A DNA stretch of 16,211 nucleotides from an uncultured Desulfurobacterium sp. (GTDB taxonomy: Bacteria; Aquificota; Aquificia; Desulfurobacteriales; Desulfurobacteriaceae). A program made the position numbers and the translations under genes. How positions within the stretch are numbered: the stretch's first letter is position 1; every line of letters starts with the position of its first letter. This document shows positions 1 through 16,211 of this stretch, piece after piece. The stretch spans positions 1-16,211 of the forward strand of contig CAJXJV010000009.1 in NCBI GenBank assembly GCA_913055135.1. The letters run 5' to 3'. The notes below the pieces were generated by a model that ran no database searches, was not told the origin of the DNA, and was given only the letters and a program-made list of their open reading frames with translations.

Positions 1-80
1 ACAATAAACATAGCTCCTCAACTGTCCCCCCACACGTCTAAAATTCACTATAGAAGCAGGAACCCATATCCGGAGGAGAG

Positions 81-2378
81 ATGAAAAAGATTACTGTCGT
101 TAAGAGAAAAGGTGTTAGAGAACCTCTTAACATAGAAAAGATAAGGAAGGTCATAAACTGGGCAGCGAAAGGACTAAACATAAACACCCTAAAACTGGAG
201 GCAAAGCTCAAACTTCACTTCTTTGATGGAATTACAACCAGACAGATTCACGAATCCGTTGTGAATACAGCTCTCCAACTTACAACTCCAGAAGAGCCAG
301 ACTGGAGAATACTTGCTGGAAGGCTTTTTATCTTTAACCTCTACAAAGAGGTCTCTATCAGGAGGGGAACTTCAAAATTAGCTTATGTTGGTGGTGGAAA
401 GGAGTATTTAAAGGTTGTAAAAGATCTCGTAGAAAAGGGACTTTATACCGACGAAATTCTTAAAAGTTACTCAGAAGAAGAGCTCATTGAGGCTGGAGAC
501 TATCTAAAACTCGAGTACGACTTCCTCTACGACTATGCAGGAGCAAATCTCCTTGCCAAACGCTATCTCTGTATATATGAGGACTTCCCGATTGAACTTC
601 CTCAGGAAATGTACATGTCTATTGCTCTCATGCTCGCAAAAAATGAACCTAAGGAAACAAGGCTCAAAACTGCTAAAAGATTCTATGACCTGATTGCTGG
701 AAAGAAGCTCTCCCTTGCAACCCCAATTCTCATTAACCTCAGACGTCCTAATGGAAATCTCTCCTCCTGTTTCATTACAGCAATGGATGATAACCTTGAT
801 TCAATTATGTACACAGCAAACCAGGTTGCGCAAGTTTCAAAGAGAGCTGGAGGTGTTGGAGTTAATCTCTCAAGAATCAGAGCTCAGGGTTCCTGGATTA
901 AAAAGGTCTTCGGCGCAAGTGGCGGTGTTGTTCCATGGATAAGAATCCTGAACGATATAGCCGTTGCGGTAAACCAGGAAGGCAAAAGAGCTGGTGCCGT
1001 TACCGTTGCCCTTGACGTCTGGCATCTCGATATCTTCGATTTTCTTGAACTAAAGACAGAGAATGGTGACCTGAGAAGAAAAGCTTTCGACATTTTCCCA
1101 CAGGTGGTCATTCCAGATCTTTTCATGGAGAGGGTTAAGTACGACCAGGATTGGCTTCTTGTTGATCCCTATGAAGTTGAGAAGAAGTTCGGATTTAAGC
1201 TCTATGAACTCTGGGGAGATGAGTTTGAGAAGGCTTACATGCAGATCGAAAACGAGAGCTCCAAACTGAAGCTGAAAAAGAAAGTAAGAGCCAAAGAGCT
1301 CCTGAAAGAGATTCTGAAAACTCAGGTTGCCACAGGTCTTCCATACATCTTTTTCAAGGATACTGCAAACAGACTAAACCCACTTAAGCACGACGGCTAT
1401 ATTGGAAATGGAAATCTCTGTATGGAAAGCTTCTCAAACTTCAAGCCATCTAAAAGCTTCAAGACCTACATGAAGGATGGAAAGGTTATCAGTGAAGTTG
1501 AAGAACCGGGACTTGTCCACACCTGTAACCTCCTCTCAATCAACCTTGCAAACATAGAGAACGATGAGGAACTGGAAGAAGCTGTAAGAACTGCCGTTAG
1601 AATTCTTGACAACACGATAGAGCTTACAGCTCCTCCAATCCCTGAAAGCAAGCTCCACAACGACAGATACAGAACAATCGGAATTGGAACACTCGGACTT
1701 GCGGATTATCTTGCAAAGAGAGAAATACCTTACGGCAGACAATCCCTCGATGTAATAGATGAACTCTACGAGAAGATAGCCTACTACGGAATTGATGAAA
1801 GCATAAATCTTGCAAAAGAGAGAGGAAAATTCCCTGCTTATGAAGGATCAGACTGGAGTAGGGGAATAATCATTGGCAAGGACAGAGAATACCTTTCAGA
1901 AAAGACAAATCTAAAGGAAAAGTGGCTAAATCTCTTAGAAAAGCTTGAAAAGTATGGCATCAGAAACGGCCAACTCCTTGCAATAGCCCCCAACACAAGC
2001 TCTGGACTTCTTCAGGGAGCAACTCCTGGAGTTCTGCCACCGTTCAGCAGGTTCTACATCGACAAGAACCAGAAACAGGCTGTACCAATATGCCCTCCAT
2101 ACCTACGGGAGAGATTCTGGTTCTACAGAGAGAGCAAATACATGGATCAGAAAGAGGTTGTAGAGGTCATCTCAACAATCCAGAAGTGGGTCGATAGCGG
2201 AATTAGCATGGAGCTCCTCTTCAACCTCAACCTTGGAATAAGAGCAAAAGACATCTACGAAACCGTCATGTACGCATGGGAAAAAGGTGTAAAAACAATC
2301 TACTACATCAGAACTGTTCAGAAGGACAGCGAGGCAGAGCTCTCAAAGAAAGAAGAATGCATAGCCTGTGCAAATTAA
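81..2378 (+). CDS. nrdA: Ribonucleoside-diphosphate reductase, class I alpha (large) subunit
   Basis: Catalytic subunit that reduces ribonucleoside diphosphates to deoxynucleotides in the cytosol, working with the radical-generating NrdB. The 765-residue protein begins with an ATP-cone allosteric domain (about residues 1-95), followed by the ten-stranded barrel. Visible catalytic residues are Cys230 (in LSSC), the thiyl-radical Cys447 with Asn445 and Glu449 (NLCMES), and the partner Cys482 (HTCNLL). The PNTSSG phosphate-binding loop is present, as is the radical-transfer pair Tyr741-Tyr742 (TIYY). The tail ends in CIACAN, giving the Cys760/Cys763 pair that is re-reduced by thioredoxin or glutaredoxin. 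The ATG at 81 follows a strong GGAGGAGAG ribosome-binding site. nrdB follows 41 bases downstream. The active-site motifs are contiguous, so there is no intein. No convincing promoter or NrdR box was found in the 80 bases upstream, but the promoter may lie outside the window. Confidence 0.97.
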   Translation: MKKITVVKRKGVREPLNIEKIRKVINWAAKGLNINTLKLEAKLKLHFFDGITTRQIHESVVNTALQLTTPEEPDWRILAGRLFIFNLYKEVSIRRGTSKLAYVGGGKEYLKVVKDLVEKGLYTDEILKSYSEEELIEAGDYLKLEYDFLYDYAGANLLAKRYLCIYEDFPIELPQEMYMSIALMLAKNEPKETRLKTAKRFYDLIAGKKLSLATPILINLRRPNGNLSSCFITAMDDNLDSIMYTANQVAQVSKRAGGVGVNLSRIRAQGSWIKKVFGASGGVVPWIRILNDIAVAVNQEGKRAGAVTVALDVWHLDIFDFLELKTENGDLRRKAFDIFPQVVIPDLFMERVKYDQDWLLVDPYEVEKKFGFKLYELWGDEFEKAYMQIENESSKLKLKKKVRAKELLKEILKTQVATGLPYIFFKDTANRLNPLKHDGYIGNGNLCMESFSNFKPSKSFKTYMKDGKVISEVEEPGLVHTCNLLSINLANIENDEELEEAVRTAVRILDNTIELTAPPIPESKLHNDRYRTIGIGTLGLADYLAKREIPYGRQSLDVIDELYEKIAYYGIDESINLAKERGKFPAYEGSDWSRGIIIGKDREYLSEKTNLKEKWLNLLEKLEKYGIRNGQLLAIAPNTSSGLLQGATPGVLPPFSRFYIDKNQKQAVPICPPYLRERFWFYRESKYMDQKEVVEVISTIQKWVDSGISMELLFNLNLGIRAKDIYETVMYAWEKGVKTIYYIRTVQKDSEAELSKKEECIACAN

Positions 2379-2419
2379 CTAAAACCGATTTTACTGTGAA
2401 CAATTTTATGGAGGTAACA

Positions 2420-3478
2420 ATGTCTGACATAAGAAAAGAACTCATGAAACCAAGACCTATCTTTAATCCAGAAGGAAACGACGATCCCGCAAAACTGGGA
2501 ATCCTTTACGGTGACACAACAAACATTTTTAACCTTAACGTTATAAAGTACGAATGGGCGCCAAAGCTCTACAGAGTTATGATGGCAAACTTCTGGATTC
2601 CTGAGACGGTTGACCTGACTCAGGACGTTCAGGATTACAAAGAGTTAACAGATGATGAAAGACAGGCTTACGATGAAATCCTCTCCTTCCTGGTCTTTCT
2701 TGATTCCATTCAGACAACAAACATCCCAAACATTGCAGCTTACGTGAAAGCACCCGAGATAACAATTGATCTCTCCATCCACGCCTACCAGGAAGCAATC
2801 CACTCCCAGAGCTACGGTTACACAATAGAATCTGTTGTTCCTCCAGAACACAGGGAAGAGGTCTATTACTGGTGGAGAAAAGACCCTATACTCTTTGAAA
2901 GGAACAAATACATAGCTGACATCTATCAGAAGTTCCTTGAAGAACCAACAATGGAAAACTACGGAGAAGTTCTCGTTGGAAACTATCTCCTTGAAGGACT
3001 TTACTTCTACAACGGCTTTATGTTCTTCTACAACCTTGCATCCCGTAACCTTATGCAGGGAACAGCAGACATAATCCGTTATATCAACAGGGACGAACTG
3101 ACACACGTCATTCTCTTTGAACACTTCATGAAAGACCTGACAGATGAGAACTTCAAGAAGTACCTGCCGAAAGACAAAATCTATGAGATGTTCAAAATTG
3201 CAGTTGATCAGGAACAGAGGTTCAGCAAAAAAGTTATTGGAAATAAAATCCTTGGAATGAACGAAAAGTCTATTGAGGATTACACATACTACATCGCAAA
3301 TAAGAGACTGAGAGCTCTCGGACTTGAACCCATATTCCCCGATAGACCAAACCCCTACGAGCACTTAGAAAGAATCGCCGACACCGGCGGAGAGGGCAAC
3401 GTAAAAGCCAACTTCTTTGAGGCGACGGTGACTTCCTACAATCAGGCTTCTGCAGTTGAAGGATGGGATGAGATATAG
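2420..3478 (+). CDS. nrdB: Ribonucleoside-diphosphate reductase, class I beta (small) subunit
   Basis: Ferritin-like radical-generating subunit (352 residues) that passes a radical to NrdA. The dinuclear metal ligands can be read by alignment to E. coli R2: Asp95 (LDSIQ), Glu125 and His128 (QEAIHSQSY), Glu192 (LLEGLYFY), Glu226 and His229 (RDELTH). The radical tyrosine is Tyr132, so this is the tyrosyl-radical type and not a class Ic enzyme with Phe at this position. The C-terminal tail contains Tyr340, a candidate for the radical-relay tyrosine that docks on NrdA. I chose the ATG at 2420 because GGAGG (2410-2414) sits 5 bases upstream and the protein then has the usual family length. The open frame extends back to 2276, but that part only overlaps nrdA in another frame. 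The stop codon touches the terminator hairpin shared with rpoC. Confidence 0.96.
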   Translation: MSDIRKELMKPRPIFNPEGNDDPAKLGILYGDTTNIFNLNVIKYEWAPKLYRVMMANFWIPETVDLTQDVQDYKELTDDERQAYDEILSFLVFLDSIQTTNIPNIAAYVKAPEITIDLSIHAYQEAIHSQSYGYTIESVVPPEHREEVYYWWRKDPILFERNKYIADIYQKFLEEPTMENYGEVLVGNYLLEGLYFYNGFMFFYNLASRNLMQGTADIIRYINRDELTHVILFEHFMKDLTDENFKKYLPKDKIYEMFKIAVDQEQRFSKKVIGNKILGMNEKSIEDYTYYIANKRLRALGLEPIFPDRPNPYEHLERIADTGGEGNVKANFFEATVTSYNQASAVEGWDEI

Positions 3479-3501
3479 AAAAACCCCGCCAGACGGCGGG
3501 G
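3479..3501 (-). terminator. Intrinsic terminator of the rpoBC operon, between convergent operons
   Basis: A perfect 7-bp GC stem (CCCCGCC at 3484-3490 with GGCGGGG at 3495-3501, loop of 4) is followed on the minus strand by five T residues (plus-strand A run at 3479-3483). It starts 24 bases past the rpoC stop. On the plus strand the same stem would follow nrdB immediately, but the bases after it are CTCGAATGG before a TTTT run at 3511-3514, so it is a poorer terminator for nrd transcripts. Confidence 0.9.
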
Positions 3502-3525
3502 CTCGAATGGTTTTACTGGCTAAGT

Positions 3526-6500
3526 TTACTGATTCTCTTCAGCTTTTTCGCAGTAGTCCCAGGTAACTTTTCTGTACTCTTTCCTTCCTGTTCCAGCAGG
3601 GATAAGTCTTCCGATAATTACGTTTTCCTTGAGACCTCTCAGGTAATCACGTTTACCTGCAATTGCAGCTTCTGAGAGAACTCTTGTTGTCTCCTGGAAG
3701 GAAGCTGCAGAGATGAATGAGTCTGTGGAAAGTGCAGCTTTTGTTATACCTGTAAGAACGGGTCTTGCTTTCGGAGGTCTCTTGCCCTCTTTAAAGAGTT
3801 GATCTCTAACCTTCTCAAACTCCTCTCTATCAACAACCTCTTCAACAAGGAAGTTGCTGTCTCCAGAGTCCTCAATTCTGACCTTGGAGAGCATCTTTTT
3901 GATGATTACCTCGAAGTGTTTGTCGTTGATATCAACACCCTGAGCTCTATAAACAGATTGAACTTCGTCAAGGAGGAACCTTGCAACAGCTCTTTCTCCA
4001 AGGATTGTAAGGATGTCGTGTGGATTGAGCTGTCCATCTGTTAGTGGTTCTCCAGCTTTAACATAGTCTCCAGTTCTTACGTAGATGTACTTACCCTTTG
4101 GAACTTCGTACTCCCTCTTGACACCTGTTTCTGGATCAAGAATTGTGATTATCTTCTTGTTTTTCTCAGTTTCGATATAAACCTTACCGCTAATCTCTGC
4201 AAGGATAGCAGTATCTTTTGGTTTCCTTGCCTCAAAGAGTTCTGCAACCCTTGGAAGACCACCTGTAATGTCCTTTGTTCCTCCAATCTTCCTTGGAAGT
4301 CTCGCAAGCTGAACTCCAATTTCGACCTCTTCGCCCTCTTTAACCATTATCCTTGCACCGACTGGAAGAGGGTAGAAGTCAACGACGTTTCCTTCTTCAT
4401 CTAAAAGTTCTATAGTTGGTTCGTAAGGCAGTGTTCTGTACTCAAGGACAACAGGTTCTGTCTCAGAAATTGTTAGTCCAGGAATGATATCCTTGAACTT
4501 AACAGTTCCCTTCCTGAGGGCGAGAATTGGAATGGCGTGAGGATCCCATTCTGCAAGGATCTGTCCTTTCTCGACTTTCTCTCCATCCTTAACTTTGAGA
4601 ATTGCAGCGTATGGAAGGTCGTACCTTTCAAGGTGCTTACCGCTCTTTTCATCAACAACTGCAATCTTTCCAGCTCTATTGATAACAACTGGATTTCCTT
4701 CCTTATCAGTAATAGTGTTGACATCAAATATCCTTACAATACCGTCGTGCTTAGCTCTGTACTCGGAGATTTCCGCACCGCGCATAGCGATACCACCGAT
4801 GTGGAACGTACGCATCGTCAGCTGAGTACCCGGTTCACCGATGGACTGTGCAGCGATGATACCGACAGCTTCACCAAGCTGAACAGGTCTTCTCCTTGCA
4901 AGGTCTCTACCGTAACACTTTGCACAGACTCCAAATGGTGCACGGCAGGTAAGGACAGACCTTATCTTAACTGAGTCAATTCCGAGGTCTTCAATTCTCT
5001 CTGCAATTTCGTCTGTAATCTCTTCATTCTTTCTAACCAAAATTTCTCCTGTTACAGGATCAACAATATCTTCTGCTGCATACCTTCCAGCAATCCTCTT
5101 GGAGAGAGGAATAACGATTTCGCCAGCCTCAATCAGCGCAGAGACTTCAATTCCATCATCACATCCACAGTCTTCCATCGTAACGATAACATCCTGTGCA
5201 ACGTCTGCAAGTCTTCTTGTTAGATAACCAGCGTCAGCAGTCTTTAATGCAGTATCTGCAAGACCTTTTCTTGCACCGTGGGTTGAGATGAAGTACTCCA
5301 GAACTGTCAGACCTTCACGGAAGTTGGAAATAATTGGTGTTTCAATAATTTCACCGGAAGGCTTAGCCATAAGACCTCTCATACCGGCAAGCTGTCTGAT
5401 CTGTGTCTGGCTACCACGAGCTCCGGACTGGAGCATCATGAATACCGGGTTGAAAGTTCCATCGTTTGGAAGTCTTCCACGGGAGTCAAGGTCGTGACTC
5501 TTCATGTACTCCATCATGTCTTTTGTAAGCTGCTCTGTAACCCTTGTCCATATGTCAACAATCTTGTTGTAACGCTCATCTTTAGAAAGAAGCCCTTTTC
5601 TGTATCCTTCTTCAATTTCGGCAACTTCTTTTTTGGCTTTCTCGATAACCTCCTTCTTGGATGGTGGTATGTGAAGGTCATCAATTCCGATTGAAAGTCC
5701 GCCGAGTGTAGCCTGAATGAAACCAGCTTCTTTGATCCTGTCAAGCATATCAACCGTAATCTCGTTTCCGAGCTTCTTGTGGATGTCTGCAATAAGCCCG
5801 GCAACGGCTTTCTTGGTCATTACTTTGTTTACGAATGGATAATTCTCTGGAAGGAGTGTATTGAACTTAACCCTTCCAACTGTAGTTGTGATTATCTCTG
5901 GCTTTCCTGAGCTGGTCTTATTTCCTGGAATTCTTACTTTAATCCTTGCGTGGAGTTCAACTTCTCCAAGGGCAAGAGCTTTTAGAACTTCATCTATGGA
6001 AGCAAATGCTTTACCTTCGCCTTTAGCTCCGGGCTTTTCAAGGGTCATGTAGTAGAGACCCAATACCATGTCCTGTGATGGAACTGCCAGTGGCTTTCCA
6101 TGAGCTGGTGAGAGGATGTTCTGTGTTGAGAGCATGAGTGTGTAAGCTTCAAGCTGTGCCTCCAGGGAGAGTGGAACGTGGACAGCCATCTGGTCACCGT
6201 CAAAGTCTGCGTTGAATGCAGTACAGACAAGTGGATGGAGCTTGATAGCTTTACCTTCAACAAGAACTGGTTCAAATGCCTGAATTGATACCCTGTGGAG
6301 TGTTGGAGCACGGTTCAGAAGAACCGGATGTTCTTTGATAACCTCTTCGAGGCACTCCCAGACCTCCGGCTCCTGCCTTTCAACCATCTTCTTGGCTTGC
6401 TTTACTGTGTTGGCGTAACCCTTTTCTTCAAGTCTTCTATAGATGAAAGGCTTAAAGAGTTCAAGAGCCATTACCTTTGGAAGACCGCACTGGTGCATTT

Positions 6501-7938
6501 CAAGTTCAGGACCGATAACGATGACAGCACGACCTGAGTAGTCAACCCTCTTACCTAAGAGGTTCTGTCTGAACCTACCCTGCTTACCCCTTAGAACGTC
6601 GGAAAGGGACTTAAGTGGATGACCTTTTGAGCTCTTAACAGGTCTTCCTCTTCTGCCGTTATCTATGAGAGTGTCAACAGCTTCTTGAAGCATACGCTTT
6701 TCGTTTCTGATAATGATGTCTGGAGCATCAAGTTCAATGAGCCTTTTAAGCCTGTTGTTCCTGTTTATAACCCTTCTGTAGAGATCGTTAAGGTCAGAAG
6801 TTGCAAATCTTCCACCTTCAAGAGGAACAAGTGGACGGAGTTCCGGTGGAAGAACCGGAAGGACTTCGAGAACCATCCACTCAGGCTTGTTGTTTGAGTT
6901 GAGGAAGGACTCAACGGTTTTAAGCCTTCTAACTAACTTTTTAAGTTTGGCTTCTGTTGTGTCTTTTCTCGTTGCTCTTCTTATCTCTTCTTTGAGGAGT
7001 TCCTTGCTCTGGATCTTACCCTGTTCAACTAAGAAGTCAACGTACCAGTCAAGAGCTCTTCCGCCCCTCTCAACTTCGATGTTTACTTTATCCTTTAAAA
7101 CTTTGTATTCGTTGTACTCAATTATCTGTCCCTTCTCTAAGTTTGAATCGCCCGGATCTGTAACGACGACAAGGACGTTCTTTACAATACCAACGATTGT
7201 ATCTTCAGAGAGCCCTGTATAGTAGGAAATTGTTTCAACCGCAGCCTTAAATACGTTTGGAAGTCTTTTCTGGAGGTCTGCGTTGATGGAGCTAATCTCA
7301 CCGGAGTACATCTTTATCTCTTCGCGGAGCTCCTCAGCAAGCTCCTCAATGTCAACCCTCTTTAGAGCTTCTTTTATGCCGGCAGCGCCGATGCCAACTT
7401 CAAAGGCATCTTCACCTAATTCTTCTACTTTTTCTCTGTACTCCTCTTCTGTAAGGATCTGGAATTTCTTGAGACCGGTTTCCTCTTCGTCACCTGGATC
7501 AAGAACGATATAACTCTCAAAATAGACGACCCTTTCCACTTCCCTGACAGAAAGCCCTAAGAGAGCACCAATCTTACTGGGAACAGATTTCACATACCAG
7601 ATGTGAGTACAAGGAGCGGCAAGCTCAATATGTCCGAATCTCTTTCTTCTCTCCTTGGAAAGTGTTACTTCAACACCACATCTATCACAGATAACCCCCG
7701 CATATTTAGAACCTCTGTACTTTCCACAGAGACACTCCCAGTCTCTGATTGGACCAAAGATCCTTGCACAGAAAAGACCATCTCTTTCTGGCTTTAGTGT
7801 TCTATAGTTAAGAGTTTCGGGAAGCTTTACCTCACCGTAGGAACACTCTCTGATTTTCTCAGGTGAAGCAAGTCCAATTTCTATTGCATCAAAGTCAAAA
7901 GTTTTTGGCTCTTCAGAGAAGACAATTTCTTTCTTCAC
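3526..7938 (-). CDS. rpoC: DNA-directed RNA polymerase beta-prime subunit
   Basis: Largest catalytic subunit of RNA polymerase; it holds the active-site magnesium and the clamp. With the GTG start the protein is 1470 residues. The N-terminal zinc ribbon has Cys69, Cys71, Cys84 and Cys87 (E. coli 70, 72, 85, 88). The catalytic NADFDGDQ motif has Asp578, Asp580 and Asp582. The second zinc site is Cys924, Cys998, Cys1005 and Cys1008. A bridge-helix segment ([14 protein letters not shown]) and the trigger-loop His1046 (TFHIGG) are present. An insertion of roughly 160 residues follows the trigger loop before GGTKDITGG, corresponding to the SI3 insertion of proteobacteria. The frame is open back to a TTG at 8004 inside rpoB, but I prefer GTG at 7938: GAGGAGGA sits 8 bases upstream and the numbering then matches E. 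coli almost exactly, while the extra 22 residues resemble no RpoC start I know. It is the last gene of the operon and ends before a strong terminator. Confidence 0.96.
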
Positions 7939-7944
7939 TACCGA

Positions 7945-7953
7945 TTCCTCCTC
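7945..7953 (-). promoter_or_regulatory. Ribosome-binding site that decides the rpoC start
   Basis: On the minus strand the bases read GAGGAGGAA, with 8 bases between the GGAGG core and the GTG at 7938. The TTG at 8004 has no comparable site. The neighbouring ATG overlapping this element is out of frame and stops after five codons. Confidence 0.8.
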
Positions 7954-7965
7954 ATGGGGTTTAAA

Positions 7966-7982
7966 AGCCCCCGAAAGGGGCT
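7966..7982 (-). promoter_or_regulatory. Hairpin in the rpoB-rpoC spacer, attenuator-like
   Basis: In the 49 bases between the rpoB stop and the rpoC GTG, the minus strand forms AGCCCC, a 5-base loop (TTTCG) and GGGGCT, followed by TTT. This resembles a weak intrinsic terminator or an RNA-processing stem. The G run could instead pair with the CCCC at 7956-7959 next to the rpoC ribosome-binding site, giving a mutually exclusive 4-bp fold. The function is inferred; only the structure is seen. Confidence 0.55.
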
Positions 7983-7987
7983 GGAAA

Positions 7988-10900
7988 TTACTCTTCCTCT
8001 TCAAGCTGCTTTATGAACTTAACATCAAGGGCTAATGCTTTAAGCTCTCTTACGAGAACATTGAAGGATTCAGGAAGGCCCGGTTCAAAGGAGTATTTAC
8101 CTTTAACGATTGCCTCATAAACTCTTGATCTACCTTCAACGTCATCAGATTTAACAGTTAGCATCTCCTGGAGTGTATAAGCAGCGCCGTACGCTTCAAG
8201 TGCCCACACTTCCATCTCACCAAATCTCTGTCCACCAAACTGTGCCTTACCGCCAAGCGGCTGCTGCGTGATAAGGGAGTAAGGACCTGTTGACCTTGCA
8301 TGGATTTTATCGTCAGCAAGGTGGATGAGTTTAAGCATGTACATGTAACCAACAGTTACATCTTGATCAAAAGGTTCGCCTGTTAGACCGTCGTAAACCT
8401 TAAGTCTTCCGGTTTCAGGAAGTCCGGCGCGCCTTAATAGTTCTTTAATCTCTTCTTCTTTAGCACCGTTGAATATTGGAGATTCAAACCTGATACCCTT
8501 GCTTAGCTTTTTGGCAACCGCCTTGAGTTCATCGTCAGAAAGGGAGTCAATGAGTTTACTGATTCTTTCATCATTGTAGATAGCCTTAATCTCCTCTCTG
8601 ACCTTGTCAAGTCCGGCTTTCATCAGCTTTTCAATTTTTTCACCAAGAGCCTTTGCAGCAAGTCCAAGGTGAACTTCAAGTATCTGTCCAACGTTCATAC
8701 GGGATGGCACACCAAGTGGGTTGAGGACAATATCAACAGGTGTACCATCCTCAAGGAATGGCATGTCCTCGACAGGTCTGATTTGAGAGATAACACCTTT
8801 GTTACCGTGGCGACCCGACATCTTGTCGCCGACCGTGAGTTTTCTCTTTGTAGCTATGTAAACCTTAACCTTCTTGTTAACTCCTGCCGGGAGGTCATGT
8901 CCCATTTCAAGGGCAGCCTTTTTCTCCTCGTAGATGTTCTCAACGAGGGCAATCTTGTCAACAGCTCTGAGTCTTATTCTCTTGAGCTCCTCAGCGGCTT
9001 TCTCATCATCGATGATTGAAGGCTTCCTGAGGGCAAAGAAAACCATTTGTTCAACCTTTCCTTCTGTAACTGTATCGCCAGCAGAGAGGATGAGGTTTCC
9101 TGCCGCATCAAAAACGTCCTCTTTAACTTTCTTTCCAAGGATAATCTCAGCAGCTTTTCTGTCCCTATCTTTCTTGATGAGAGCAATCTCTTCCTGCTTC
9201 TCTCTTTCAAGTCTCGCTTTTTCCTCAGCTTCTATGAGCTGGGTTCTTGGATCTTTCTTCTCACCCTTTCTTGAGAGGATCTTGACATCTATTACAACCC
9301 CTTCAACACCATGTGGAACGTAAAGAGAAGAATCCTTAACTCCCTTAGCTTTCTCACCAAAAATTGCCTGGAGGAGCTTCTCTTCTGGAGTTAAAACCTG
9401 TTCTCCCTTAGGAGTAACTTTTCCGACAAGGATGTCTCCAGGTTTAACGTAGGTACCGATTCTTACAATTCCGGATTCATCAAGGTTTCTGAGGAGAGAT
9501 TCAGAAACGTTAGGAATATCCCTTGTGATTTCCTCTCTACCGAGCTTTGTCTCTACAGCTTCACACTCAAATTCCTGTATGTGAATAGATGTATAGACAT
9601 CGTCTTTAAGGAGTCTTTCACTAACAAGAATAGCGTCCTCAAAGTTGTAACCTCTCCATGGCATGAAGGCAACTAAAACGTTCTTTCCAAGAGCCAACTC
9701 ACCATTATCCATAGAAGGACCATCGGCAATTATCTGACCTTTCTTAACCCTTTCACCCTTCCTGACAATAGGTCTCTGGTTAATACAGGTCTTCTGGTTG
9801 GACTTCTGGAACTTCTTGAGTTCGTAAACGTCAAACCCAGTATCTACAGAGATTCCACCTTCCTCTATCTCTTCAGGGTCAACCCTTACGATAATCTTGT
9901 CTGCAGTTACGCTCTCAACGACTCCGGATCTTCTGGCAACTACAGCACTACGACTGTAGAGAGCAACCTCTTTTTCCATTCCGGTTCCGACAAATGGCGC
10001 CTCTGTCTTTATGAGAGGCACAGCCTGACGCTGCATGTTTGAACCCATGAGGGCACGGTTAGCGTCGTCATGCTCAAGGAACGGAATCAGAGATGAAGAA
10101 ACAGAGAATACCTGCTTTGGAGAAACGTCCATAAACTGGACTTCCTCTCTTTTCACAAGCTTAAACTCTGCCTTGTGCCTTGCCATTACAGTATCGGCAG
10201 CAATGTAGCCGTTTTCATCAACAGGAGCGTTAGCCTGAGCAATTACAAAGTTTTCCTCTTCTTCAGCAGTCATATAGACTATTTCATCTGTAACCTTTCC
10301 GTTTACAACCTTTCTGTAAGGTGTTTCAAGGAAGCCAAGCCAGTTTATCCTTCCGTAGGTCGTCAGTGAGTTGATAAGACCGATGTTCTGTCCTTCTGGT
10401 GTCTCGATTGGACAGATACGGCCGTAGTGGGATGGGTGAACGTCACGAACTTCAAACCCTGCCCTTTCCCTTGTGAGACCACCAGGACCAAGAGCAGAAA
10501 GTCTTCTCTTGTGAGTTGTCTCAGCAAGTGGGTTTGTTTGATCCATGAATTGACAGAGGGAAGTAAGTGTGAAGAACTCCCTGAGTGGATTGAGGGCAGT
10601 TCTTGGATTGATGAGATCCTGTGGCATTACAGAATCAATGTCGGCAATGGCAAGTTTCTCTTTTACAGCTTTTTCTAACTTAAAGAGACCGGATTTAAAT
10701 GCAATTTCTGCAAGTTCTCCAACACCTCTAACCCTTCTGTTTCCAAGGTGGTCAATATCGTCATATTCTCTTAAGCCTGCATGAACCTCAAGGAGTGCCT
10801 TAACTGCACCTACAATATCAGCCTTATGGAGAATTCTTCCTGCATCGTCGTAGTCGGGCTCAACAGGAATTTCATCTATGTCAAGGGATGCAAGTTTTAG

Positions 10901-12304
10901 AGCAACTTCTGTGTTAATAAGCGTTCCCTTAGGAACGACAATGTCTCCATCTTCGTTATAAATATCCTCGGATACTCTAAGAGGTAATAACCATTCTATA
11001 GACTTCAGATCCTCCTTTGTAAGCTTTGAGAGTTTTTCTTTCGGATAGATTTTCTCGTTTATTTTAGCTCTACCGACCCTTGAGAGGTCGTAGTTCTTTG
11101 TGCTGAAGAACATATTTTCAAAGAGTCTCTTTGCACCTTCAACAGTAGCAGTGTCTCCTGGTCTCACTTTCCTGAATATTTCAACGTAAGCTGCAATAAG
11201 AGGATCTTCAATTTTCTCCCTTACTCTGTCTCTCCTCTCCTTTCTAAGGGTATTAACGATAACTGCACCATAGGGAGTAGCTTTTGCATGAATCGCTCTA
11301 AACTCAGCTCCTTCTGGAAGTTTTCTGGAGCTGGTGGAAAGCTCTTCATAGGCTTCCTGAATTACCTCTCCTGTCTCTGGATCGACAACATCGGTAACTA
11401 AGTAATATCCGTTGAGTTCTTCTGGAGATTTGATTTCTCCAGTTTTAGTATTTACAACTTCTCCGTTTTCCACTTTGAATGTCTCAATAGCATCACCGTA
11501 GAAAAGGTTAAGAATCTCCTCGTCTGTTCTTATTCCAAAAGCTCTTAATAGATAAGTTCCAATAAACCTTCTCTTCCTGTCTATTTTGGCGTAGAGAATT
11601 TCGTTGTGGGGAATCTCAAACTCAAGCCACGATCCCATTGCAGGAATGATACTCGCAATGTCGATAATCCTTGCTACAGTAGTAGTCTTTGATACTTCGC
11701 TTTTAAAGAAAAGACCAGGAGATCTATGGAGCTGGCTTACAACAACTTTCTCTGTTCCGTTTATAATAAATGTTCCCCTTTCTGTCATAAGGGGAATTTC
11801 ACCAAAGTACATTTTGTTTTCTTTGATAATCGGAGCTATTTTTTCACCTGTCTTTGGGTCTTTCTGCCATACGTGGAGTTCAAAAAGAACTCTTAATGGA
11901 GCGCTGTAGTCAATTCCCCTCTCTTTACATTCATCAGGGGTGTATTTTGGTCTAAATACGACTTCCATACCACACTTTGGACATACAACTCCTTTTCCAC
12001 CAAGTCCCTGAAACTTTCCACACTTGCAGTACCAGTCTCCTATCTCATAACCTTTATAGTGAATTTCCACACCGCTTTGTTCGTCAATGATTGGAAATGC
12101 CTGTCTGAACGCAGACTCCAGTCCGATGTTTTCTCTCTTATCTGGAGCTTTGTTTAACTGGAGAAATCTTTCGTAGGACTCAAATGGAAATTGGAGCAGG
12201 TCTGGAATTGGAAATGTCTCTTTTCTCTTTGCAAAACTTTTTCTTGGAAGAGATTTGATTGTTTTTGTTTCTACAGAAGGGATAGCTTTTTGGATTTTTC
12301 CCAT
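7988..12304 (-). CDS. rpoB: DNA-directed RNA polymerase beta subunit
   Basis: Second large subunit of RNA polymerase (1438 residues; E. coli has 1342). Family motifs include [16 protein letters not shown] near residue 170, the rifampicin region around [10 protein letters not shown] (Asp588, His598, Ser603), [26 protein letters not shown] and [12 protein letters not shown]. Extra segments account for the length. A four-cysteine insertion lies at residues 90-117. A proteobacterial SI1-like segment is at about 270-370, an additional insert at about 425-493, and an SI2-like insert with a charged helix at about 1010-1140. The ATG at 12304 is preceded by AGAGGT. The gene follows rplL after 110 bases containing a strong hairpin, and its stop lies 49 bases before rpoC. 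The rifampicin region differs from the usual consensus at three positions. Confidence 0.97.
11954..12037 (-). other. Inserted Cys4 zinc-ribbon segment within RpoB
   Basis: Residues 90-117 of RpoB contain Cys93, Cys95, Cys108 and Cys111 (C-x-C-x12-C-x2-C). Aligned to E. coli RpoB, this block lies between the YEIG and RPKYTPDEC stretches (E. coli YRLG and EPVFDVQEC), where E. coli has nothing. Its cysteine spacing and flanking residues match the beta-prime zinc ribbon at 7660-7740, with 13 of 27 residues identical and no gaps. Zinc binding is inferred from this likeness. Confidence 0.85.
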
Positions 12305-12347
12305 ATTTGACCTCTTCTCTAAGAGTTTTTGTGTTTAAATGCGAGAA

Positions 12348-12374
12348 GGGAGACTACCCCCCTGGCAGTCTCCC
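12348..12374 (-). promoter_or_regulatory. Strong hairpin in the rplL-rpoB spacer
   Basis: A perfect 8-bp stem (GGGAGACT with AGTCTCCC, loop of 11) lies 44 bases upstream of the rpoB ATG and 40 bases after the rplL stop. On the minus strand it is followed by TTCTCGC and not a T run, so it is not a complete intrinsic terminator. E. coli has an attenuator and an RNase III site in the same interval, which lowers polymerase output relative to L7/L12. A comparable role here is an inference from position and structure. Confidence 0.65.
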
Positions 12375-12414
12375 AGCCGAGAATTATATTCCTATTAAAG
12401 AGAAGTTTCAAGAG

Positions 12415-12798
12415 TTACTTAACTTCTACTTCAGCACCAGCTTCTTCAAGCTTCTTCTTGATCTCCTCAGCTTCTTCCTTGGAAATTCCCTCTTTAACTG
12501 GGCTTGGAGCGTTGTCAACGAGAGCTTTTGCTTCCTTGAGTCCCAGTCCTGTGATTTCTCTGACAACTTTGATTACCTGAATTTTCTTGGCACCCGGAGA
12601 CTTGAGGATAACATCAAACTCTGTCTTTTCCTCAGCAGCTGCAGCACCAGCACCTGGAGCAGCAACAGCACCAGCAGCAACTACAGGCATGTCAGATACA
12701 CCAAACTCTTCCTTAATTGCGTTGATGAGATCAACGAGCTCGAGAACTGTCATGTTCTTGATAGCTTCGATGATTTGCTCTTTTGTGATTTCTGCCAT
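12415..12798 (-). CDS. rplL: 50S ribosomal protein L7/L12
   Basis: Stalk protein that recruits and stimulates translational GTPases such as EF-Tu and EF-G. The 127 residues show an N-terminal dimerisation domain (about 1-36), an Ala/Gly/Pro-rich flexible hinge (about 38-56) and the C-terminal factor-binding domain. The C-terminal domain includes the conserved [20 protein letters not shown] helix region (71-90). The ATG at 12798 has GAGGAGG just upstream. It lies 46 bases after rplJ, consistent with co-transcription and with L10 and L12 forming one complex. Length and composition are typical. Confidence 0.97.
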
Positions 12799-12844
12799 TT
12801 TTCGCCTCCTCTTTGATTAAAAATTCTGAAATTTTTCACCTAAG

Positions 12845-13378
12845 TTAAGCACTAACTTCCTCTTTCTCAGCTTTAACGTTTTCAAGAACTGTAACCAACT
12901 TCTGGAATAGATTGTCAAGAGACCATGCAACAGCGTTGACAGGATACTTGAGGGTAAATGCAAGTTGACCAAGGAGCTCTTCTCTGCCTGGAAGAGAAGC
13001 GAGCTGTTTAACCATCTCATAGTCAGTAACCTTGCCTTCAACAACAGCAGCTTTAAACTGAAGCTTGGCATCCTTTTCTTCAAGGAATTCCTTGAGAGCT
13101 TTAGCGGCAGCTACAATATCCTCAAAGGCAAGAACAATTCCCGTAGGACCAACAAAAGCATCCTTAATCTGCTCTACAGGGGTACCGGGGTAAGCATATC
13201 TCATAAGGGTGTTCTTTACTACCTTGTACTCAGCTCCTGCTTCCCTGAGTTTCCTTCTGAGAGCGTTACTTTCTGCAACTGTCATTCCATTAAAGTCAGT
13301 AAGTATAACAAGGGAAGCTTTCTCAAACTTTTCTTTAAGCTCCTTAACTATTTGTTCTTTAGCTTTTCTCGTTTTCAA
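12845..13378 (-). CDS. rplJ: 50S ribosomal protein L10
   Basis: Base of the ribosomal stalk; it binds 23S rRNA through its N-terminal domain and L7/L12 dimers through its C-terminal helix. The 177-residue protein contains VVKNTLMRYA and the DAFVGPTGIVLAF segment typical of the family. It is slightly longer than the 165-residue E. coli protein. Thermophile L10 proteins often carry a longer C-terminal helix that binds three L12 dimers, but I cannot count binding sites from sequence alone. The start is TTG at 13378, supported by GGAGGT seven bases upstream; no ATG or GTG sits in a better place. The gene is preceded by a promoter and an L10-type leader, and L10 (with L12) probably represses its own translation there. 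Confidence 0.96.
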   Translation of the reverse strand: MKTRKAKEQIVKELKEKFEKASLVILTDFNGMTVAESNALRRKLREAGAEYKVVKNTLMRYAYPGTPVEQIKDAFVGPTGIVLAFEDIVAAAKALKEFLEEKDAKLQFKAAVVEGKVTDYEMVKQLASLPGREELLGQLAFTLKYPVNAVAWSLDNLFQKLVTVLENVKAEKEEVSA

Positions 13379-13403
13379 AGGAGTTACCTCCGCTAAGGAT
13401 TTT

Positions 13404-13516
13404 CGGTGGGATGTAGAGGGAGGGCATAGGTGGAGGGAGAGATGAATACCGCTCTCGGTCTCAGTAGGCTGCCTTTTCAGGCATTTAAGCTATGCACCTA
13501 CCCTCTACGACCACCG
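13404..13516 (-). promoter_or_regulatory. L10 leader (ribosomal protein autoregulatory mRNA element)
   Basis: The region upstream of rplJ folds into a long interrupted stem. CGGTGG (13404-13409) pairs with 13511-13516, GTAGAGGG (13413-13420) with 13501-13508, and GCATAG (13424-13429) with 13490-13495, with internal loops between. Inside, 13470-13483 forms a 5-bp hairpin closed by a GAAA tetraloop on the transcript. A long interrupted stem just before the rplJ ribosome-binding site is the arrangement of the L10 leader family, where the L10-L12 complex binds a kinked stem and blocks translation. The assignment rests on location and fold, not on a covariance search. Confidence 0.82.
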
Positions 13517-13531
13517 CAAATTGCAGCCGTA

Positions 13532-13559
13532 ATTCTATTCAAATTTCTACAGTTGTCAA
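13532..13559 (-). promoter_or_regulatory. Sigma-70-type promoter for rplJ-rplL-rpoB-rpoC
   Basis: The minus strand carries a perfect -35 TTGACA (13554-13559), a 16-bp spacer and a -10 TAGAAT (13532-13537; five of six consensus bases). It begins 10 bases after the rplA stop. Transcription would start near 13525, just before the leader stem, so the whole L10 leader would be at the 5' end of the transcript. This parallels the E. coli rplJ promoter. Confidence 0.8.
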
Positions 13560-13568
13560 CCCCATTTG

Positions 13569-14291
13569 CTACTCACTCAATTGAGCTCTGTTTATTGCAT
13601 CAAATATATCAACCTTAACACCGGGATCCATTGTAGCTGAAACTGCAATGCTCTTTACATACTGTCCCTTAGCTCCAGATGGCTTTGCAGCAAGAATTGC
13701 TTTGAGGAGAGCAACTGCGTTCTCAAGAAGCTTTTGCTCATCAAAAGAAACCTTTCCTATTGGAGCGTGAACAATACCAGCTTTTTCAACCTTAAAGTCA
13801 ACTTTACCGCTTTTAGCATCCTTAATAGCCTTCGCAATATCAAAAGTTACAGTTCCTGTTTTTGGGTTTGGCATGAGTCCTCTTGGACCAAGGATTCTAC
13901 CAAGTCTACCAACCTTGCCCATCATGTCAGGAGTAGCAATCAGAACATCAAAATCAAGCCATCCCCGCTGAATCTTCTGAATGAGATCATCCCCACCAAC
14001 GTAATCTGCACCAGATTCCTGAGCTTCCTGTAGTTTTTCACCCTGGGCTATTACTGCAACTTTTCTCTCTTTACCGAGACCGTGAGGAAGAACAACGCTA
14101 CCTCTTACCATTTGATCCTGGTATTTTGGATCAACGTTGAGTCTTACTGCCATCTCTACAGTTTGATCAAAGTTTCTCTTTGTCACATCAGCCATTTTCT
14201 TTACAAGGCTGATAGCTTCATCAAGTGGATAGAGCTTACTTCTTTCAACGAGAGCGAGAGCGTTCATGTACTTCTTTCCATGCTTTGGCAT
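13569..14291 (-). CDS. rplA: 50S ribosomal protein L1
   Basis: Protein of the mobile L1 stalk that helps release E-site tRNA; in many bacteria it also represses its own operon by binding mRNA. The 240-residue sequence begins [11 protein letters not shown] and contains the family segments [17 protein letters not shown] and [16 protein letters not shown]. Length is close to the E. coli protein (234). The ATG at 14291 follows AGGAGGAG. It lies 77 bases after rplK. That spacer contains a hairpin, while only 20 bases separate nusG and rplK, so any L1-binding site is more likely before rplA than before rplK; this last point is inference. Confidence 0.97.
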
Positions 14292-14330
14292 CTTCTCCTC
14301 CTATCGGCACATTTTTTTTTGAAATGCCTC

Positions 14331-14344
14331 CCACCGCTCGGTGG
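14331..14344 (-). promoter_or_regulatory. Hairpin in the rplK-rplA spacer
   Basis: The minus strand forms CCACC, a 4-base loop (GAGC) and GGTGG, about 40 bases upstream of the rplA ATG. Between it and the ribosome-binding site is a run of nine A residues (plus-strand T run at 14312-14320). That run lies in the loop of a second bulged stem, GGCATTT with AAATGTGCC. This may be a translational control element, possibly for L1, but no known motif is matched exactly. Confidence 0.4.
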
Positions 14345-14365
14345 TCAGTTAATTCACCTATTCAA

Positions 14366-14791
14366 CTACTCAACTACTTTTACTCCCATATTCTTAGCAG
14401 TTCCAGCAATGATTTTCATTGCTGATTCAATGTCATAGCAGTTGAGATCCTGCATTTTCTGCTCGGCAATCTGTCTGAGCTGTTCCTTTGTAATCTGTCC
14501 AACCCACTCTTTCTTTGGCTGATGAGCACCTTTTTCAATTCCTGCAGCCTTCTTAATGAGAACAGATGCAGGTGGAGTTTTGAGAACGAAAGAGAAGGAT
14601 CTGTCTGCGTAGATTGTGATAACCACAGGGATTACAAGTCCTTTCTTGTCAGCTGTAGCTGCATTAAACGCCTTTACAAACTCCATAATGTTTACACCAT
14701 GTTGACCAAGTGCTGGTCCAACAGGTGGTGCAGGTGTAGCTTCACCGGCAGGCAACTGCAGCTTTACTTCAGCTACAACTTTCTTTGCCAT
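14366..14791 (-). CDS. rplK: 50S ribosomal protein L11
   Basis: Component of the GTPase-associated centre of the large subunit, next to the stalk base formed by L10 and L12. The 141-residue protein has the N-terminal proline-rich family signature [20 protein letters not shown] (residues 14-33) and a C-terminal RNA-binding domain with [15 protein letters not shown]. Length matches the family. The ATG at 14791 has GGAGG upstream and the gene follows nusG by 20 bases, so the two are co-transcribed and no leader element fits between them. Confidence 0.97.
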
Positions 14792-14811
14792 TTCTTCCTC
14801 CGTTTATCTCC

Positions 14812-15549
14812 TTAACTTATTTTCTCGATCTGATCAAACTCCAGTTCAACTGGAGTCTGCCTGTCGAAAATGTTAACCAGAACTATAATCTTTTCTCTTT
14901 CTGGGTCAATCTCTGAAATGGTACCTTCAAATCCAATAAATGGTCCTTCTTTAATTTTCACTTTATCTCCAATTTCAAACTTAAGTTTTTTAACTTTTGG
15001 TACACCTTTCTTAAGTCTTTCTATCATTGCTTTGATTTCAGATTCAGGAACGATAACCGGCTTCCCTGCAGCACTGACAAATCCAAGTACTCTTGGTACA
15101 CGTCTTACTGTACTTTGAACGTTCTTGTCTAACTCTGCCTTGATAAAAATGTATCCCGGATAAAGTCTATCTCTTAACTCAATCTTAGCTTCTACTTTGT
15201 TCTCTGGACACTTTATCTTCTGACCAATTTTTTCAATCGGTTTATCGGGAGTGCACTTTTTCTTTTCACATTCGCAGGATTCCACCCATACTCTGCCATC
15301 TTCGATTCGAAAAACGACCTTTTTTCCCTCTTCACCTTCAACTTCATGAATACGAGGTTCTCCGTGTAGAGGCACTTCACCTTTTTCTTTTCCAGCTACT
15401 TTAAAGACAACTTTTTCCACCGCAGGAATGAAAATTTCCTCTACCTTACTTTCTAAACCTTCTTCCTTCAGAGCTTTTAAAATGTTGGCTTTCACCCTGT
15501 GCTCAAATCCTGACTGAACATGAAGGGAATACCACTTTTTCTCTTCCAT
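14812..15549 (-). CDS. nusG: Transcription antitermination/elongation factor NusG
   Basis: Binds RNA polymerase across the cleft through its NGN domain and links it to Rho or the ribosome through its KOW domain. The 245-residue protein starts with KKWYSLHVQSG (NGN strand 1). The second half of NGN follows at RLYPGYIFIKAEL (about 129-141), and the KOW domain lies at about 193-243 (GDKVKIKEGPFIGFEG). An inserted domain of about 75 residues (roughly 45-120) splits the NGN. A similarly placed insert is known in Aquifex NusG, which supports an Aquificota origin. The insert here has Cys92, Cys94, Cys99 and Cys114, a possible metal site. The gene follows secE by 12 bases. Confidence 0.96.
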   Translation of the reverse strand: MEEKKWYSLHVQSGFEHRVKANILKALKEEGLESKVEEIFIPAVEKVVFKVAGKEKGEVPLHGEPRIHEVEGEEGKKVVFRIEDGRVWVESCECEKKKCTPDKPIEKIGQKIKCPENKVEAKIELRDRLYPGYIFIKAELDKNVQSTVRRVPRVLGFVSAAGKPVIVPESEIKAMIERLKKGVPKVKKLKFEIGDKVKIKEGPFIGFEGTISEIDPEREKIIVLVNIFDRQTPVELEFDQIEKIS

Positions 15550-15561
15550 TGAATCTACCCC

Positions 15562-15744
15562 TTATTTTTCTATTATCATTTTTAAAGCTTCAGAAAATAC
15601 AAAATCGAGTGCCCAGAAATAGATAGCAATGAAGGCACAGAAAACTACAACACCGAAAGTGGCTTCTATTACCTCTTCCCTGGAAGGCCAGGTCACTCTG
15701 TTAAGCTCTTCTTTGACTTCCTTTAAAAATGTTACTGGTAGCAT
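15562..15744 (-). CDS. secE: Preprotein translocase subunit SecE
   Basis: Small membrane subunit that stabilises SecY in the SecYEG channel. The 60-residue protein is the minimal single-span type. A short cytoplasmic amphipathic helix with the family motif VKEELNRVTWPSREEV (residues 10-25) is followed by one transmembrane segment at about 29-50. E. coli SecE has two extra N-terminal spans, which are missing here as in most bacteria. The ATG at 15744 has GAGGT five bases upstream. The adjacency to nusG is a widely conserved pair. Confidence 0.93.
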   Translation of the reverse strand: MLPVTFLKEVKEELNRVTWPSREEVIEATFGVVVFCAFIAIYFWALDFVFSEALKMIIEK

Positions 15745-15771
15745 ATTTACCTCACTTCTTTTTTTTCAATG

Positions 15772-15809
15772 AATCCAAAAATATTTCCTACTATTTTGGT
15801 TTTTGGATT
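15772..15809. repeat. AT-rich inverted repeat upstream of secE
   Basis: A perfect 10-bp inverted repeat (AATCCAAAAA at 15772-15781 and TTTTTGGATT at 15800-15809) with an 18-base spacer lies between tRNA-Trp and secE. It may be an RNA stem at the tRNA 3' processing boundary or an operator. Because it is AT-rich, chance is a real alternative. Confidence 0.35.
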
Positions 15810-15846
15810 TTAAACTTTAGAGAAAAGACGAAAATAAAACAATAAA

Positions 15847-15922
15847 TGGCAGGCCAGGAGGGACTCGAACCCCCAACCGCCGGATTTGGAGTCCGGAGCC
15901 CTGCCAATTGGGCTACTGGCCT
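15847..15922 (-). tRNA. tRNA-Trp (anticodon CCA)
   Basis: A complete 76-base cloverleaf reads on the minus strand. It has a 7-bp acceptor stem (AGGCCAG with CTGGCCT), a D stem (GCCC with GGGC), an anticodon stem (CCGGA with TCCGG) with loop CTCCAAA, a 5-base variable loop and a T arm with TTCGAGT. The anticodon CCA is at 15887-15889. The discriminator base is G and the 3' CCA is encoded. It sits between rpmG and secE with 26 bases after rpmG, so it is probably cut out of the tuf-rpmG-secE-nusG transcript; this position is also seen in other bacteria. Confidence 0.97.
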
Positions 15923-15948
15923 ACCTAAAACTCCCCCAAAAATATAAC

Positions 15949-16113
15949 CTATTTTACCTCTCTGTGCAAGGTGTGTTTGTTACACCATGGACAATACTTA
16001 CGGAGTTCTAATCTATCAGGAGTATTCCTTTTATTCTTTGTGGTTGAGTAATTTCTTCTTTTACATTCTGTACAGGCAAGCTGTATTATCTCACGAGGTC
16101 CTTTCTTAGCCAT
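15949..16113 (-). CDS. rpmG: 50S ribosomal protein L33, zinc-binding form
   Basis: Small large-subunit protein of 54 residues, beginning [18 protein letters not shown] and ending in HREVK. Two CxxC pairs, Cys14/Cys17 and Cys41/Cys44 (CPWC), form the zinc ribbon of the cysteine-containing L33 type. The ATG at 16113 has GAGGAG upstream. It lies 35 bases after tuf and 26 bases before tRNA-Trp, in the conserved tuf-rpmG-tRNA-secE order. The presence of all four cysteines contrasts with the cysteine-free L33 paralogues that some bacteria express under zinc limitation. Confidence 0.95.
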
Positions 16114-16146
16114 TTCTATCTCCTCATCTATGGTATTAAACTCTCA

Positions 16147-16211
16147 TCAGTCCAATATTTCCGTAACAACACCAGCACCTACAGTTCTACCACCCTCACG
16201 GATAGCAAACC
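16147..16211 (-). CDS. tuf: Elongation factor Tu, C-terminal end (partial)
   Basis: The window edge cuts this gene, leaving 20 full codons plus a TGA stop. The translation [20 protein letters not shown] matches the very end of EF-Tu domain 3 (E. coli [20 protein letters not shown]). EF-Tu delivers aminoacyl-tRNA to the ribosome. Its place directly upstream of rpmG is the usual order. Whether this is the only tuf copy cannot be told from here. Confidence 0.95.
   Translation of the reverse strand, partial: [20 protein letters not shown]

Follow-up and report, generated by a model that had tools for sequence, protein, structure and literature searches.

The beta-prime subunit (RpoC) of bacterial RNA polymerase contains a zinc ribbon situated near the RNA exit path, and SI1 and SI2 of Escherichia coli are lineage-specific inserts of the beta subunit (RpoB). 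The subject of this analysis is a beta subunit that appears to contain a zinc ribbon of its own, encoded in a 16,211-nucleotide stretch of DNA from an uncultured Desulfurobacterium sp. of the phylum Aquificota (contig CAJXJV010000009.1, positions 1 to 16,211; hereafter, the window). A survey of beta insert domains published in 2024 (PMC11515920) describes five insertion sites, all outside the first domain, and its main text never mentions zinc. The available portion of a review of RpoB signature indels (PMC3417386) lists a large insert, two 3-residue inserts, a 4-residue deletion, a 25-residue insert in Rhodospirillales and a 6-residue insert in Thermotoga, and the ribbon insert in the beta protrusion is not in that list; the available portions of PMC3444138 and PMC2474590 mention a 3-residue RpoB insert only. 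The first-pass annotation of the window stated that no zinc ribbon had been described at this place in bacterial beta. This agrees with the literature searched, outside which Lane and Darst 2010 and Iyer et al. 2004 lie and in which no description of a beta zinc ribbon was recognised; Lane and Darst 2010, in which such an insert may well be catalogued, could qualify the statement. From the comparisons below we infer zinc binding, origin by copying and the role of the insert: with a rough probability of 0.6, it was copied long ago from the zinc ribbon of beta-prime, and it may form a zinc-stapled hairpin on the protrusion that serves as a protein contact patch.

The RpoB insert and its match to RpoC

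The insert, its host gene and the matching segment of rpoC all lie on the minus strand of the window:

7988..12304, minus strand: rpoB, RNA polymerase beta (1438 amino acids), the host protein of the ribbon; open reading frame and six Pfam Rpb2 families including PF00562 (E 2.2e-137)
3526..8004, minus strand: rpoC, RNA polymerase beta-prime; open reading frame and Pfam
11954..12034, minus strand: putative beta zinc ribbon, W91-F117 of RpoB; match to RpoC and insert in alignments with structure chains
12035..12037, minus strand: D90 of RpoB, which completes the 28-residue insert; sequence
12020..12028, minus strand: first cysteine pair, C93-x-C95 of RpoB; sequence, retained or lost jointly with the second pair across carriers
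11972..11983, minus strand: second cysteine pair, C108-x2-C111 of RpoB; sequence, retained or lost jointly with the first pair
7660..7740, minus strand: beta-prime zinc ribbon, the segment matching the beta ribbon; ungapped alignment and profile searches

Residues 91-117 of RpoB align with the zinc ribbon of RpoC (residues 89-115 from the TTG start, or 67-93 in GTG numbering) without gaps, with 13 of 27 residues identical and a BLOSUM62 score of 86; the next best 27-residue segment anywhere in RpoC scores 8, and none of 100,000 shuffles with the cysteines fixed in place reaches 86 (the maximum is 73). In an alignment with the solved beta chain 7f0r_C, the match ends at residue 90 of the query and 83 of the chain and restarts at 119 and 84, respectively, leaving 28 extra residues, and with the E. 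coli beta chain 10ma_I the second aligned stretch begins at residue 119 of the query and 78 of the chain. The insert lies in the beta protrusion, at a site adjoining residue 78 of E. coli beta. In a PDB search with RpoB, solved beta chains skip the ribbon residues (best 60 of 74 matches listed). Thus, the first-pass annotation was accurate with respect to the ungapped match, the C-x-C-x12-C-x2-C spacing of the cysteines and the clean 28-residue insertion in the protrusion; its range 11954..12037 overshoots the ribbon proper, which ends at 12034, and is right for the insert once D90 is counted. AlphaFold2 predicts the region with a mean pLDDT of 93 per ten-residue block across residues 91-120, with strands at 90-93 and 116-118 (the structure alignment comprised the window and 40 of the 80 named-genome loci described below, thinned at 90% identity).

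Across genomes, the insert is found with a C-x-C first pair, as in the window (CxC form), with a CxxC first pair (CxxC form), without the cysteines, or as a tandem double ribbon. Comparison of the CxC beta profile with the RpoC ribbon profile using hhalign yields a probability of 98.4% (E 5.5e-15); as yardsticks, the same RpoC comparison gives 59% with the second double-ribbon unit and 14% with the CxxC form. The first ribbon of the doubles matches both the RpoC and the CxC beta profiles with probabilities of 96-97%, and the CxxC form, which has its position and flanks in common with the CxC beta form, matches the profile of the latter with 96%. Profiles A4-A7, A10 and A11 were built from hand-picked rows. 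When individual genomes are searched with the CxC profile, which includes rows from some of them, the top match in all 12 CxC genomes is RpoB, followed by RpoC at E 3.6e-6 to 4.5e-4, and the best match to any other protein has an E of 0.31. The best 60 of 81 PDB matches of this profile are all bacterial beta-prime or gamma chains (top E 4.9e-4), counting 3iyd_D and 9n07_J, which were deposited as beta but are beta-prime in length and match position. The CxC-x12-CxxC pattern of the beta-prime ribbon is present in the window and in 65 of the 80 loci, and is missing from the CxxC and cysteine-less forms; profile likeness to beta-prime exceeds that to other zinc ribbons for the CxC form only.

Distribution and variants of the ribbon

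An N-terminal RpoB query matched 122 of 136 Aquificota genomes, although the matches in G020, G037 and G074 are weak and the one in G130 lies behind the insert site. Of the 30 Aquificota loci taken, 29, including the window, reach the site, and all 29 have the four cysteines, either as CxC-x12-CxxC in families f1 and f2 (the window's) or as the CxxC form with a longer loop in families f3, f4 and f5. Relatives with the same sequences as the window's group are Desulfurobacteriaceae and Aquificaceae. Within the window's order, mean identity is 92% at the ribbon site compared with 85% in the rest of RpoB (11 sequences). As a separate observation, the IKE-type loop, which we take to be the Mfd/CarD-binding loop of RpoB, is missing from the RpoB N-termini of family f4 (Aquificaceae, e.g., L043-L047), and its loss coincides with the absence of PF02559 proteins in six tested f4/f5 genomes (G023, G026, G030, G039, G087 and G127).

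Outside Aquificota, at least six of 45 genomes have an insert at the same site: the CxC form in G140, G155, G165 and G166, a double ribbon in G137 and a divergent form in G168. A scan of named genomes identified 130 relatives, the best 80 of which were used; 65 of these are CxC, four CxxC and 11 lack the cysteines. Among these 80, 46 are titled Nitrospina, Nitrospinaceae, Nitrospinota or similar; others are Tectomicrobia including Entotheonella, Desulfurobacteriaceae and Aquificaceae, and further metagenome-assembled genomes (MAGs) are labelled Nitrospirae, Aquificota, Deferribacteres, Thermodesulfobacteriota and Verrucomicrobiota. In the Nitrospina phylum, a profile of the insert gives a full match in 62 of 77 genomes and one match split across two contigs, with no match in 11 genomes and a match to RpoC only in three. 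A set of 290 genomes around G155, in which most families are represented by one or two, gave 24 full-length matches of at least 90 bits and one more broken at a contig end; two of these 25 genomes are Aquificota and nine apparently belong to the same group as G155, which biases the sample toward carriers. The insert is absent from 39 RpoB sequences in the alignment, most of which were chosen because the match lay behind the site. As the insert is common to several phyla, it is not an event private to the window's lineage.

A tandem pair of zinc ribbons with eight cysteines occupies the site in at least six RpoB sequences (G137, G219, G225, G328, G360 and G365), and a divergent form is found in two (G168 and G320). 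In G365's phylum, sampled as an even draw of 99 genomes from a larger group, the double ribbon is matched in 90 genomes over 80 or 81 of 81 residues; eight have no match and one has only a match containing stops. Eight cysteines are present in all 20 double-ribbon loci that were read among the 90 matching genomes. Two genomes of the Nitrospina phylum (G425 and G426) carry a second CxC ribbon in the beta lobe, about 300 residues downstream of the first, at a site where ten RpoB aligned with theirs have nothing. The positions of these additional copies are:

L037, L163, L164, L166-L168 and L230-L249: tandem double ribbon (eight cysteines) at the same RpoB site
L224, W380 of RpoB (same as L075), and L223, W441 of the open frame: lobe ribbon

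The lobe ribbon shares at best 14-15 of 24 residues with beta ribbons and 11-13 of 24 with beta-prime ribbons. It is the clearest sign that the ribbon can duplicate inside the enzyme, even if 24 residues cannot prove the donor. In another genome, G432, two RpoB matches were found on contigs C42 and C14, one with the ribbon and one apparently without, probably as a result of contamination.

The cysteines are retained or lost together. In 105 distinct regions, four of which are out-of-frame double ribbons excluded from the counts, single ribbons have either four cysteines (73 CxC, 15 CxxC-type) or none (10) or one (3), and no single ribbon has two or three. Thus, the four residues seem to behave as one site, which supports a metal site. 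Seven of the 11 cysteine-less loci include rpoC, and in all seven the beta-prime cysteines are kept. The cysteine-less beta ribbons retain loops such as EY.GLGGPGV, which suggests that the hairpin is useful beyond the putative metal site. The basic loop between the cysteine pairs of beta-prime is not found in the beta ribbons: the mean loop charge is -0.6 in beta (61 sequences) versus +4.6 in beta-prime (78 sequences), and the mean net charge of the 27-residue segment is -1.4 versus +2.8 in the same sets. The beta loop is nearly neutral and glycine-rich, e.g., GEYKGLGGPGV.

Besides rpoB and rpoC, the minus strand of the window contains open reading frames that presumably correspond to nusG, rplK, rplA, rplJ and rplL, and the plus strand contains those that we take to be nrdA-like and nrdB-like genes. 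In the window and in L112, NusG (14812-15549, minus strand, in the window) carries an additional domain in which cysteines cluster (CECEKKKC...KC), possibly another metal site; an Aquificaceae NusG (L130) has this domain with two cysteines. Among the eight NusG read, only those of Aquificota contain it; it is missing from the five that belong to Nitrospinota, Tectomicrobia and an unlabelled MAG. The source genome also contains, at the end of contig C74 (L002), a second rpoB fragment, 73% identical, which is probably a foreign contig in a fragmented assembly.

Origin, age and possible role

Averaged over 51 distinct genomes, a beta ribbon is identical at 12.80 of 27 residues to the beta-prime ribbon encoded alongside it and at 12.79 to beta-prime ribbons from elsewhere, so that the kinship, itself likely, would be ancient. 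Recent copying, or gene conversion by rpoC, inside the window's own group could draw on the fact that the window's ribbon, with 13 of 27 identities, is among the more beta-prime-like forms, but this ribbon resembles foreign beta-prime sequences (mean 13.9 identities, at most 15) as much as, or more than, that of its own genome (13), the DNA of the two segments is identical at 44 of 81 positions, and orthologues occupy the same site in other phyla. Such an event is hardly credible, and the first-pass view of an old event that left little DNA similarity agrees with these data. A tree of beta and beta-prime ribbons, which that annotation had proposed as a check, separates the two sets on 26 columns, with beta-prime forming one group (96/99, bootstrap not settled).

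For the host protein, 135 distinct RpoB sequences of at least 1000 amino acids were aligned, and trees were built without the insert site (class labels of the divergent L165 and L169 were assigned by hand). On the first tree (86 rows, one per class at 80% identity, L127 excluded), presence and absence of the insert take three changes; on the second (53 hand-picked rows, mixture model) they take four, whereas 500 shuffles need at least 11. A tree constrained to group every single-ribbon carrier withstands the test (p-AU 0.539) and is 2.46 log units better.

The profile comparisons suggest that the CxC beta ribbon and its beta-prime counterpart are probably of common origin, with later drift, convergence being the main rival. 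Several observations weigh against the interpretation as an old copy. The similarity is confined to 26-27 residues, which leaves copying, as opposed to convergence, and its direction unproven, and the isolated ribbon piece gives no significant match in Foldseek and VIA-align. The reciprocal search with the RpoC profile detects the beta ribbon at E <=0.03 in eight of the 12 CxC genomes, at 8.7 in one and not at all in three, and finds it in none of eight CxxC genomes. The CxxC form shows no significant likeness to beta-prime in profile comparisons or the PDB search: in Aquificota (e.g., L041-L048) its top PDB match is archaeal Rpo12/RpoP (E 1.1e-5), and no beta-prime chain is found among the best 60 of its 69 matches. 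Likewise, the 12 PDB matches of the first ribbon of the doubles include no beta-prime chain (the best is eS27, E 0.025). In CxC carriers outside the window's order (56 sequences), identity is 60% at the site compared with 66% in the rest of RpoB, so the site is not unusually conserved there. Finally, deep RpoB branches shift between the two tree models, so that a single gain followed by losses is not distinguished from repeated gains or from transfers.

Under convergence, an unrelated zinc ribbon inserted in beta would have grown beta-prime-like through the demands of the same short fold. The shortness of the matching segment, the match of the CxxC form to Rpo12 with no beta-prime among its listed matches, the 59% attained against RpoC by another ribbon, the second of the doubles, and the failure of the reciprocal search in four of 12 CxC genomes all fit this explanation, but no other protein comes near RpoC as the second match in any of the 12 CxC genomes or appears among the best 60 of 81 PDB matches. 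Moreover, the zinc ribbon fold is not known to require the CxCG first pair, the tryptophan or the x12 spacing that the two ribbons share. On balance, convergence seems unlikely. The first-pass annotation had left copying and convergence side by side; the part that survives is a specific likeness of the CxC form to beta-prime, beyond that of generic zinc ribbons, and the part that does not is an event of this particular lineage.

In the favored scenario of an old copy, the beta-prime zinc ribbon would have been copied long ago into the beta protrusion, where a single zinc ion would staple a short beta-hairpin that extends the protrusion and may act as a protein contact or brace for another RNA polymerase element, sigma or NusG. 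The replacement of the basic loop of beta-prime by a nearly neutral, glycine-rich one points to a protein contact rather than a nucleic acid clamp, and the persistence of the hairpin in lineages that lost the cysteines suggests that zinc would serve hairpin stability. The available excerpts of PMC11001881 and PMC7864632 describe the E. coli protrusion as flanking upstream DNA and as the docking place for NusG-type factors and Mfd. Alternatively, as in beta-prime, the ribbon could contact nucleic acid, gripping the upstream duplex DNA or the edge of the upstream bubble during initiation or elongation. The course of the protrusion along upstream DNA in E. coli complexes, as given in the same excerpts, and the kinship to the beta-prime ribbon are compatible with this possibility, but the mean charges given above speak against it, although less strongly for the window's species than for the mean, because its own loop has two lysines and no acidic residue. 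Nucleic acid contact thus appears improbable, and a protein contact or brace would be favored over it, tentatively, with about one chance in three. Another candidate role is to help Mfd or CarD dock, since their RNAP-interacting domain binds this protrusion as well. It meets the difficulty that the six of 36 tested genomes without PF02559, which are those named above, all have the ribbon; this role is highly improbable, and Mfd and CarD are unlikely as general partners.

Beyond the old copy itself, it is conceivable, if short of an even chance, that the zinc ribbon is a mobile building block of RNA polymerase that moved from beta-prime to the beta protrusion early in bacteria, was doubled in tandem in most of one large phylum, moved again to the beta lobe in two Nitrospinota and elsewhere became a zinc-free hairpin. 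RNA polymerase is among the best-studied enzymes, and the solved beta chains in the listed matches are without this part. If the proposal is correct, the enzyme of these phyla has one ribbon on each large subunit, and the one on beta, facing upstream DNA, would be a clamp or platform absent from the E. coli and Thermus models; if this ribbon is kin to that of beta-prime, a module moved between the two large subunits and then multiplied. The lineages with and without cysteines offer a natural experiment on the reasons for retaining or losing a zinc site, and the ribbon may serve as a marker of deep bacterial groups.

Comparison with known systems

The closest known counterpart is the bacterial beta-prime zinc-binding domain, which has the same C-x-C-x12-C-x2-C spacing and is the best profile match of the CxC form; both begin with W/Y-E-C-x-C-G and end with C-x2-C-G-x-E-V. 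Unlike that domain, the beta ribbon belongs to the other large subunit and sits on the beta protrusion rather than by the RNA exit path, its loop is not basic, and its cysteines are lost in some lineages where beta-prime keeps them. The archaeal Rpo12/RpoP is a separate small subunit, whereas the beta ribbon sits within RpoB, and the likeness to it is limited to the CxxC form, Rpo12 not being among the best 60 of 81 PDB matches of the CxC form. Like the BEAN insert domain (PMC11515920), the ribbon is a lineage-restricted insert in beta, but it differs from BEAN in having 28 residues and four cysteines and in its location in the protrusion (to which we assign domain uD1), outside the five listed sites.
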